From Microcystis wesenbergii NRERC-220 (lineage in GTDB: Bacteria; Cyanobacteriota; Cyanobacteriia; Cyanobacteriales; Microcystaceae), in assembly GCF_032027425.1 (NCBI RefSeq), contig NZ_JAVSJA010000001.1:558001-622000 (forward strand): 64,000 bases of DNA, read 5' to 3'. Positions within the stretch are counted from its first letter, which is position 1; each line of letters starts with the position of its first letter. This document shows positions 6,389 to 9,127 of the stretch, one piece after another. The translations under genes were made by a program, and so were the position numbers. The notes beneath the pieces are model-generated. The model was not told the DNA's origin and did not search any database. It saw only the letters and a list, made by a program, of their open reading frames with translations.

Positions 6389-7726
6389 TTAATGATTAAT
6401 CAGAGGTGCAGAATTAGCCAGAAAACCCGCAACTTTCAGAGACTCTAGCACTGAATTGTCATCCTCTACCCAATAGTTTTGTCCTAAACGCACAAATTGA
6501 CGCTGAGTTCCCGCACCGATGGTGGCAATAACGGGAACTTTTGCCTTTTGTTTGTCTCCCGATTGCAGAATACTTTTAAGAAGATTTTGACGATTTTGGT
6601 TGACGACATCTTGCAGGGATAAATTAACCATCACCATTTTAATGGTTTCGATCGGTTCCGCATCTTCGATAATTAATTGTACCCGATCATCTCGGCGATC
6701 AACTTTTCCCCACACCATTAAAGTTGCTTCTTCTACTAATAATTTTTGCAGACGTTCGTAGGTATCGGAAAAAACCACCGCTTCCGACTGTCCCGAGGCA
6801 TCTTCTAGGGTTAAAAAGGCCATAGGATTCCCTTTTTTGGTCATAATTTTCTTAACGGCATTTAATAGGACAATCGCACTGACTTTTTTTCTGGTTTTGT
6901 GTTCTTCTAAGTCAGCTAAATTGATAGGAGATAGGACTTGAGCGGCTCTTTGTAAAGCTTTTAAAGGATGTTCGGAAACATAAAAACCCAAATGTTCTTT
7001 TTCCAGTTTTAACTTTTCCTGTAGGGAAAAATCTGCTACTGCCGTTGCACTGGGAGACTGTTCAAACTCGGACTCTTGTTTATTTTCTGTGCTACCCCCT
7101 AGCATATCAAAAATATTCATTTGACCACTTTCTTTCTCTTTGGTGCGTTTTTGCGCCCAAGCAACTACTAATTCTAAATCTTCAATTAATTGATGGCGAT
7201 TCGGTTGAATTTTATCAAAAGCACCGCAATAAATTAGCGTTTCTAAAGCTCTTTTGTTGACTACTCGTAAATCAACACGCTCACAAAAATCACCTAAAGA
7301 AGTAAACTTTCCTCCCGCTGCTTCCCGCGCTTTTAAAATAGCCTCGATCGCATTTTCGCCCAGATTTCTAACTGCGGACAAACCGAAGAGAATTTTGCGT
7401 CCAATCGGGGTAAAATGTTTTTGCGATCGATTGATGTCGGGAGGTTCGACATCGATATTCATTTTCTGACAGTTTTCTCGGTACTTTTCCACCTTATCCT
7501 GATTATCGCTACTAGCAGTTAGTAACGCTGTCATATATTCCACAGGATAATTAGCTTTTAAATAAGCGGTTTGATAGGTGACGTAAGCATAAGCGGTAGA
7601 GTGAGATTTATTAAAACAATTGGAGGCAATTAACCCGTTGCCCAGCAAAAAATTATGATCTTTCTCCACACCAATATCGTAAACGGGTTGCCTTCCCAAG
7701 AATTGACGACCGATAATTTTAACCAT
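6389..7726 (-). CDS. dnaE: DNA polymerase III alpha, C-terminal half with split-intein IntC
   Basis: Residues 1-36 ([11 protein letters not shown]...LIASN) are the C-terminal piece of the cyanobacterial split DnaE intein. The terminal Asn36 is followed by Cys+1 (CFNKSHS), the conserved splice junction. The remaining 409 residues are the C-extein: the end of the polymerase region ([20 protein letters not shown]), helix-hairpin-helix sequence, and an OB-fold (about [16 protein letters not shown] to FSDTYERL). It must be joined in trans to the N-terminal half, encoded elsewhere, to give the replicative polymerase. The upstream 11 codons in frame come from IS-derived DNA; the ATG at 7726 matches the known IntC start. 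Confidence 0.96.
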
Positions 7727-7769
7727 ATTATTAACCCAACTCTCCAGAGATTTTTGCAACGGTAGCCAT

Positions 7770-8011
7770 AGGAAGATAAAGCATAGCCATCAGATGAGCA
7801 TGAGGAAGAATTTTAATCACTTCAAAGTAATTGAGAATGCCTTCAGTCATTGACAGTTTTGCCCCTTTGAGAGCCAGTTTCAGATTGTCGATAATATAAT
7901 ATCATCGGGTAATTTTGAGAGTTTGGCAAGGGTTCTTTTTTTGACTTGATTTCCTTCTCGGTAGCAATCTAGTCGAAGAACGGCGGTGGGGGGAACTTTT
8001 TCTATATACAT
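7770..8011 (-). pseudogene. IS1634-family transposase N-terminal remnant
   Basis: On the minus strand from 8011: MYIEKVPPTAVLRLDCYREG then KKRTLAKLSKLPDD, followed after a small frame-shifting insertion by DNLKLALKGAKLSMTEGI and YFEVIKILPHAH. This matches the N-terminal part of IS1634-type transposases, which begin with a short beta-rich segment and SYREG...KRTLANLSKLP. The rest of the transposase is gone. The fragment ends within about 45 bases of the dnaE start, so it may sit in or replace the native dnaE promoter. The exact lower boundary cannot be fixed by eye. Confidence 0.65.
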
Positions 8012-8167
8012 GACTACCATTTTAGCCAATAGAGAGAATTCTTGTCTATTAATAAATATTACAATCAACATGGTTACATTCTGAAAAATCAATGGCTGTA
8101 TCCATTGATGAATAAAGGTTTTAGCTTATTGTAGTATATATATACGAAAAAAGTTCAGGTATATTTT

Positions 8168-9127
8168 TTAGAAATTCCACAGCACAGGATTATCATCCAA
8201 GCAATCAGTCACCTGTTGACCAATATTATCAATTAATTTTAGGTCTTCTGGGGTTAAATTAATTGTCATTGCTTGAGCATTATTAACTGCTTGAGCGGCA
8301 TTTCTTACCCCAGCAATTGCATTAGTTTGAGGTTGCTTAATTAACCAAGCAAGAGATAATTGAGCTAGGGAACAATTATAGCGGTTAGCAATCGGTTCTA
8401 ATTGAGTTAAAGCCGCTTGTACCCTCTGAAAGTTTTCGCCATGAAAGAGTTTATTTTTAATTCTATGATCCTCCGATGCTAACTGATAACCGTTTCTAAA
8501 TTTTCCTGTTAATAAACCTTGGGCAAGGGGAGAATAGGCCAAAATAGAAATATTATTCTCTAGACAATAGGGCATAATTTCCTTTTCTACCGAGCGCCAA
8601 AACAGAGAATAGGGAGGTTGAATACTCTCAATTCTGCCGTATTGACTGGCTTCTTCCAGTTGAGAGCGGGAGAAATTGGAAACCCCTATAGTGCGAATTT
8701 TTCCCTGGGCTTTCAGATAATTAAGAGCGGCCATAGTTTCAGAAATAGGCACTATTTCCGTGTTCCATGAGCCACTGGGCCAATGAATTTGATAAAGATC
8801 TATATAATCGGTTTGGAGGTTTTTTAAAGAGCGATGACAAGCGGCGATAACTTCCTCGTATTTGAGGTGATTAGCAAAAACTTTGGTGGCATAAACTACC
8901 TGTTCTCGCACATCGGCCAAAGCTTGAGCGACAATGGATTCCGAGTGACCTTCCCCGTAGATTTCGGCTGTATCTACAGTGGTAATTCCTGCCTCAAAAG
9001 CGGCACGAATGGCTTTAATACTTTCTCCATCTTCAATACCTGCCCACATCTTTTTTCCTGCTTGCCAAGTACCCACGAGAAGGGGAGTAATTTCTATATT
9101 AGTCTGACCGAGATAGCGTTTTTGCAT
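8168..9127 (-). CDS. Aldo/keto reductase
   Basis: 319 residues, a full-length NAD(P)H-dependent (beta/alpha)8-barrel reductase. The catalytic tetrad can be read in order: Asp52 and Tyr57 (VDTAEIYGEG), Lys82 (YATKVF) and His115 (LYQIHWP). The cofactor-binding end is represented by ILAYSPLAQGLLTGKF and the later IAGVRNAAQAVNN block. The substrate cannot be told from sequence; such enzymes reduce aldehydes or ketones, or belong to the oxidoreductases annotated as general stress proteins. The gene stands alone; a small hydrophobic ORF lies upstream on the same strand. Confidence 0.92.
   Translation of the reverse strand: MQKRYLGQTNIEITPLLVGTWQAGKKMWAGIEDGESIKAIRAAFEAGITTVDTAEIYGEGHSESIVAQALADVREQVVYATKVFANHLKYEEVIAACHRSLKNLQTDYIDLYQIHWPSGSWNTEIVPISETMAALNYLKAQGKIRTIGVSNFSRSQLEEASQYGRIESIQPPYSLFWRSVEKEIMPYCLENNISILAYSPLAQGLLTGKFRNGYQLASEDHRIKNKLFHGENFQRVQAALTQLEPIANRYNCSLAQLSLAWLIKQPQTNAIAGVRNAAQAVNNAQAMTINLTPEDLKLIDNIGQQVTDCLDDNPVLWNF

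Follow-up and report, generated by a model that had tools for sequence, protein, structure and literature searches.

A split DnaE intein in Microcystis wesenbergii and relatives in which an endonuclease gene lies between its halves

Comparison among related cyanobacteria suggests that the split in the dnaE gene may have begun in place. The reading proposed here, to which we assign a probability of roughly 60%, is that the split started as a dnaE-N gene ending in the N-terminal intein half (IntN), a LAGLIDADG endonuclease gene, and a dnaE-C gene led by the C-terminal intein half (IntC), with the endonuclease tail overlapping the start of IntC and carrying a motif that resembles a ribosome-binding site. 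This layout would still persist in scattered lineages, with its endonuclease held under purifying selection. In other lineages the endonuclease would have been lost or replaced by other cargo, and the pair would have been dispersed many times and re-fused at least once (in the genome G409), with no single ancestral relocation. The stretch of DNA analyzed here, hereafter called the window, would represent one end point of this process. It comprises 64,000 nucleotides of Microcystis wesenbergii NRERC-220 (G000:C1:558001-622000), whose genome of 4.68 Mb is assembled in two contigs.

The window almost certainly holds dnaE-C led by IntC. The remainder of the polymerase, with IntN, is encoded by a distant gene and by analogy with studied systems would be joined to it by splicing. 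Judged from its sequence, the intein itself is real, intact and ordinary: it is the textbook cyanobacterial split DnaE intein, which is already known.

Identity of the intein half in the window

A single frame on the minus strand (6389-7726, 445 codons) encodes a 36-residue IntC with Asn at its end, followed by the Cys-Phe-Asn of the DnaE C-extein. IntC spans 7619..7726 (minus strand, 36 codons) and includes block F (VYDIG...DHNF) and the terminal Asn36. The Cys+1 codon at 7616..7618 (minus strand) opens the C-extein, which runs through residues 37-445 and the stop codon at 6389..7618 (minus strand) and contains the HHH_6 and OB-fold domains of DNA polymerase III alpha, both of which were recovered with Pfam. 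The block F residues D17 and H24 (in DHNF) are present in IntC. A previous sequence-only reading had proposed a 36-codon IntC at this position, ending in Asn and followed by Cys-Phe-Asn; its coordinates, residues and junction were right, and the strand, which it left unstated, is the minus strand.

Over residues 1-444 the frame reached 794.8 bits with NCBIfam NF005616, whose curated cut-off is 646; for residues 14-37, TIGR01443 intein_Cterm gave 34.5 bits (cut-off 15.6). A chance match was considered and is ruled out by these curated family scores. IntC had also been described as apparently intact, and this description holds: it shares one unbroken frame with the C-extein, and Asn36 and Cys+1, a pair whose loss was specifically looked for, are present. 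The general Intein_splicing model of Pfam gave 15.6 bits, under its cut-off of 35.8, as might be expected because IntC is a 36-residue half. Solved DnaE intein chains in the PDB match residues 1-36 or nearly so. The penultimate residue of IntC is Ser, not His, as is usual in the split DnaE intein family (PMC5874633).

The mechanically called frame starts at a TTG at 7759, and an ATG at 7726 opens IntC. Because an ATG is found at the IntC start in all 30 IntC loci compared (the window and 29 relatives), we consider the ATG at 7726 the likely start of dnaE-C. Initiation at the TTG would place 11 extra residues before IntC. The frame is indeed open up to this codon, and in 4 of ten congeners the open frame extends to 458-478 codons, but in the other 6 it comprises only 448 codons and the ATG holds the identical position throughout the 30 loci, which makes the upstream start very improbable.

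The window pair resembles the Npu and Ssp DnaE split inteins in host protein, insertion site, IntC length (36 residues), IntN length (about 100 residues) and the Cys1, TxxH, Asn36 and Cys+1 features. It differs from them by substitutions only, and the region upstream of the window gene holds a decayed transposase piece. When IntC was aligned to other split inteins, as the earlier reading had advised, identity was 74% to Npu and 69% to Ssp over 42 residues that include 6 of the extein. The two proteins exceed the cut-offs of NF005616 (PRK07373, IntC half) and NF007079 (PRK09532, IntN half) over nearly their full length, and we found no difference from these families.

The region upstream of dnaE-C

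A 37-base leader (7727..7763, minus strand) abuts the IntC start codon and is common to 8 of the 10 congeners by blastn; in G009 it forms part of a longer match, and the 7 others match at 89-92%. Directly upstream of this leader, and outside the intein, lies a homologue of the start of an IS1634-like transposase gene with a broken frame (7783..8159, minus strand). Its beginning reads MYIEKV...REGNQVKKRTLAKLSKLPDD and then passes out of frame. The piece is 83% homologous to a place in G003, where the frame reads MYIEKVLNRNSPPAVLLRESYREGDQVKKRTLANLSKLPDDIIDNLKLALKG, and another related place in the window's own genome adjoins a 231-residue frame assigned to the IS1634 family by NCBIfam. Among the ten congeners, the region upstream of the window dnaE-C was found only in G009, which is without 121 bases of the piece. 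Plasmid records yielded no match.

From these comparisons, the region upstream of dnaE-C, promoter region included, has probably been replaced. If so, the dnaE-C promoter should therefore lie either in the 37-base leader or in the newcomer. A scan of 7600-8250 with a promoter consensus returned 9 promoter-like sites versus 2.5 (sd 1.5) in shuffled sequences; three are on the strand of the gene, and none was identified as the promoter.

A distant gene for the N-terminal half

The existence of a dnaE-N gene with IntN elsewhere in the genome had been put forward as a check on the assignment. This gene is found at G000:C1:3351439-3354063 as an 874-residue frame, so the two polymerase halves are encoded by separate genes, as proposed, on one contig and approximately 2.8 Mb apart. 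The frame ends in ...FAEY-CLGGETLILTEEYG...ATKDHKFMT...DFS, which corresponds to a full 100-residue IntN (CLGG...TKDH...DFS) with Cys1 and the block B TxxH motif (ATKDH). It scored 1806.6 bits against NF007079 (curated cut-off 1525) and also matches intein_Nterm. Across 96 residues, IntN can be aligned with no gap to the solved DnaE IntN 4lx3_A, which we take to be that of Npu.

At E <= 0.001, the sole match to DNA_pol3_alpha (PF07733) in the genome falls inside dnaE-N (C1:3352342-3353142), the C half has one match, and neither half was found in a second copy. Because each model has this single match in the whole genome, we set aside the idea of a second, unsplit dnaE, none having been found among matches at this threshold. 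A second intein-like place occurs in the genome at G000:C1:4077150-4077578, where a frame of 598 residues contains both N- and C-terminal motifs, and a further match resembling an intein C terminus lies at G000 C1:476932.

By analogy with studied members of the family, IntN and IntC would associate. The acyl shifts would fall to Cys1 of IntN and Cys+1 of the C-extein, Asn36 of IntC would cyclise, and the intein pieces would be released, with ...FAEY joined to CFNKSH.... For this strain, IntN-IntC binding, trans-splicing and a need for them in replication are inferred.

Retention and selection of the two halves

We compared 59 near-kin genomes, including that of the window. IntC is present in 49 (matched from query residue 1-2), and the junction is uninterrupted in 10 (matched from query residue 32-34). 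Of the 49 genomes with IntC, 46 have full-length IntN, and none of the 10 whose junction is uninterrupted has it. The IntN/IntC pair is kept together despite the distance between its genes. Three genomes have IntC without a visible full-length IntN. In G008, dnaE-N was matched to residue 271 and is followed by a stretch reading N, in G002 a search of the genome found no dnaE-N, and G011 is a genome that is 78% complete. We did not use G002 or G008 as examples of a lost partner, given that the G008 locus is 39% N and that the G002 case is unexplained.

Natural split inteins had been called few, which overstates their rarity: in addition to the 46 of 59 near-kin genomes with full-length IntN, 176 of 388 genomes across the class gave an IntN match (E <= 1e-15). 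A 2010 survey records split DnaE for S. elongatus and every “Clade B” cyanobacterium and takes this as a sign of common ancestry (PMC2823733), and a 2022 paper reports it in all Thermosynechococcus genomes compared except one (PMC9403480).

For the window genome and ten congeners (55 pairs), dN/dS is 0.153 for IntC versus 0.088 for the C-extein. The corresponding value for IntN is 0.101 (28 pairs from 8 of 9 loci, one having been missed by the search pattern) versus 0.039 for the last 300 residues of the N-extein. By these measures, purifying selection acts on both intein halves within the genus, yet they evolve faster than the exteins. Asn36 and Cys+1 are kept in 30 of 30 IntC loci (window included), and Cys1 and the T..H block are kept in the 8 genus IntNs that were read. 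These observations bear on whether the intein might be a decayed relic, with the polymerase pieces acting as separate, non-covalent subunits without splicing. Such a reading could appeal to the faster evolution of both halves relative to their exteins and to the fact that splicing in this strain is argued by analogy. However, both halves are intact and co-occur, their catalytic residues are conserved as described, and their dN/dS values are far under 1, so that we regard decay as extremely improbable.

Relatives with an endonuclease gene between the halves

In two relatives (G054 and G036), IntN and IntC share a contig and strand and are separated by an open frame. The products of these frames (P0003 and P0004) are 76% identical, and each matches LAGLIDADG_3 above the Pfam cut-off in two stretches; the motifs LLGLIAADG and VLGYFDGDG are present. 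When one genome per species was scanned with an aligned set of five of these proteins, 17 loci were identified, among which L105, L111 and L115 are contigs of G036, G180 and G213. IntN is followed by the endonuclease in 17 of 17, and IntC comes next in 15; the contigs of the other 2 end within or just after the endonuclease. Carriers include Microcoleus vaginatus HSN003, Leptolyngbya sp. PCC 7375, Okeania, Trichodesmium (MAG) and Planktothrix (MAG), as well as Chamaesiphon, Laspinema, Microseira and Chlorogloea.

The stop codon of the endonuclease overlaps the start of IntC (ATGGTTAA or GTGGTTAA; GTGGTTAG in L111) at all 14 junctions listed, and at each of these the last endonuclease codons carry a GGAG-like or GAAG motif. 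The 14 are drawn from 17 distinct loci that show both IntC and the end of the endonuclease; L119 lies outside them, and the usual endonuclease end is lost in L099 and L114. Ten pairs from five Microcoleus-like loci gave an endonuclease dN/dS of 0.165, indicative of purifying selection. The gene is damaged in some carriers, being interrupted in L119, frame-shifted in L120 and broken by one internal stop in L113. In four endonuclease-bearing loci (L112, L113, L114 and L120), extra insertions with adjoining intein-like matches split the N-extein near residue 705 or 730.

Dassa et al. (2009) reportedly described “fractured genes” in which an endonuclease is encoded between the halves of a split intein, in other genes and with nucleases of a Vsr-like family. 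The relatives share with this layout the order of IntN, endonuclease frame and IntC on one strand, but differ in that the host gene is cyanobacterial dnaE and the endonuclease matches LAGLIDADG_3. The window differs from both, with its halves far apart and with no match to P0003 in its genome at E <= 0.001. A literature search, mostly without subscription papers, recovered no description of an endonuclease gene between the cyanobacterial dnaE halves. To our knowledge, the side-by-side and endonuclease-bearing arrangements in the relatives are new.

A viral source of the endonuclease was considered and rejected, since the best 80 of 84 viral loci match at only 24-35% identity. Of these 80 loci, 13 have any match to dnaE or intein queries, and L174 and L194 were read in frames. 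The viral contig L194 (1005-6833) carries a DnaE-like frame with what by eye are two contiguous inteins, one with LAGLIDADG-like motifs. By eye, this last intein, which is contiguous and endonuclease-bearing, lies four residues off the cyanobacterial insertion site and therefore represents a different site.

Arrangements across the class

In the class-wide sample of 388 genomes, halves were counted as adjacent when they share a contig and strand and are no more than 10 kb apart, as picked by eye among the matches listed. Adjacent halves occur in at least 29 genomes, and IntN precedes IntC in all 29 pairs examined. One of them, G409, has a single contiguous frame, and four have the endonuclease; G101 holds a remnant of 45 residues, and the remaining 23 have other spacers of 132-8171 bases. 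The endonuclease query matched in 8 of the 388 genomes: four matches are full-length or nearly so (that in G063 is without the tail), one is fragmented at contig ends, one is a tail remnant, and two are at places without a dnaE match. Frames for Uma2-like restriction endonucleases are present, by raw count, in 11 of the 23 spacers, and another conserved frame, without a Pfam match, is present in 3 (spacers with either type of frame are in L203, L205-L215, L217 and L218). Uma2 genes are very common in cyanobacteria.

The contiguous DnaE intein of G409 (L202 2498-2909) reads ...LELKQINSKSH-VKIISRKSLG... in one frame. In G036, a member of the same family, IntN ends in ...KQINSISHL-stop and is followed by the endonuclease and by an IntC that begins MVKIISRKSLG. 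The G409 intein thus looks like the outcome of endonuclease loss with re-fusion of the split halves.

History of the split

We mapped these arrangements onto a DnaE N-extein tree of 85 loci, namely 30 dispersed, 24 adjacent without an intact endonuclease, 20 with the endonuclease, 10 intein-free and 1 contiguous. The duplicates L105, L111 and L115 were dropped beforehand. The tree derives from a quick search, is unrooted and includes one long row (L100), and some of its “dispersed” labels denote halves on different contigs of draft genomes. With intein-free loci left out, dispersed versus adjacent states require 11 changes. Dispersed versus all others likewise requires 11, at least 5 of which are forced by strongly supported branches, and the endonuclease label requires 10, with at least 5 forced. 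Because the tree has no outgroup, these counts do not distinguish gain from loss.

Endonuclease carriers are spread over several distant regions of the tree, and the sister of G409 is an endonuclease-bearing Planktothrix (SH-aLRT 100). Endonuclease and DnaE distances agree (r = 0.876 for 171 pairs from 19 loci; 0 of 2000 permutations as high), and therefore mainly vertical descent of the endonuclease is favored. In at least one conflict with this pattern, the L099 endonuclease groups with those of Okeania and Trichodesmium and the L099 DnaE does not, so that some horizontal spread of the endonuclease is possible.

A test for a relic of the endonuclease tail before dispersed dnaE-C genes (3 of the 11 genus loci and 19 others) gave 1 of 22 loci at <=0.05, which is about chance. 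Such a relic before the window dnaE-C was rejected with a fraction of 0.306, although the form in the congener locus L003 (0.014) looked suggestive by eye. Among adjacent loci without an intact endonuclease, 16 of 24 were scorable and three gave values <=0.01 (L102, L206 and L219); L102 holds an endonuclease remnant, and in the tree L219 and an endonuclease carrier are sisters. Because no relic was found before dispersed dnaE-C genes, including that of the window, the history rests on the relatives. Their arrangements suggest that dnaE-N and dnaE-C would once have been neighbors, in some lineages at least with the endonuclease gene between them, and would have separated later. Dispersal of the halves, as in the window, was probably a repeated event.

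A 2003 paper on the distribution of the intein is said to have proposed that a single rearrangement split dnaE. Under this scenario, one ancestral event separated dnaE-N from dnaE-C, and the adjacent forms are later re-joinings. The wide occurrence of the split agrees with it, the tree, with its quick search and without an outgroup, does not fix the direction of change, and the conflicting placement of L099 allows for some transfer of the endonuclease. On the other hand, re-joining would have had to restore IntN before IntC in each of the 29 adjacent pairs, and many such in-register events are implausible. That several distant branches of the tree carry the endonuclease at the junction also argues against a single event, as does the interleaving of dispersed and adjacent states described above. 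We therefore consider one ancestral rearrangement unlikely and favor a split that began in place with the endonuclease gene between the halves.

Implications

One earlier paper treats the split DnaE intein as built by neutral intermediate steps (PMC3403396), and another speculates that genome arrangements splitting a contiguous intein were its origin (PMC5874633). The adjacent, endonuclease-bearing, remnant-bearing, cargo-bearing and re-fused forms described here are candidate steps from a mobile intein to an obligatory two-gene system. These candidate steps are found in living species, named strains included, and therefore the origin of the split could be tested at the bench. With the window intein, a further natural split DnaE pair joins a family that serves as a main tool of protein ligation. 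The arrangements in its relatives matter more, as they may indicate how such a split can arise.
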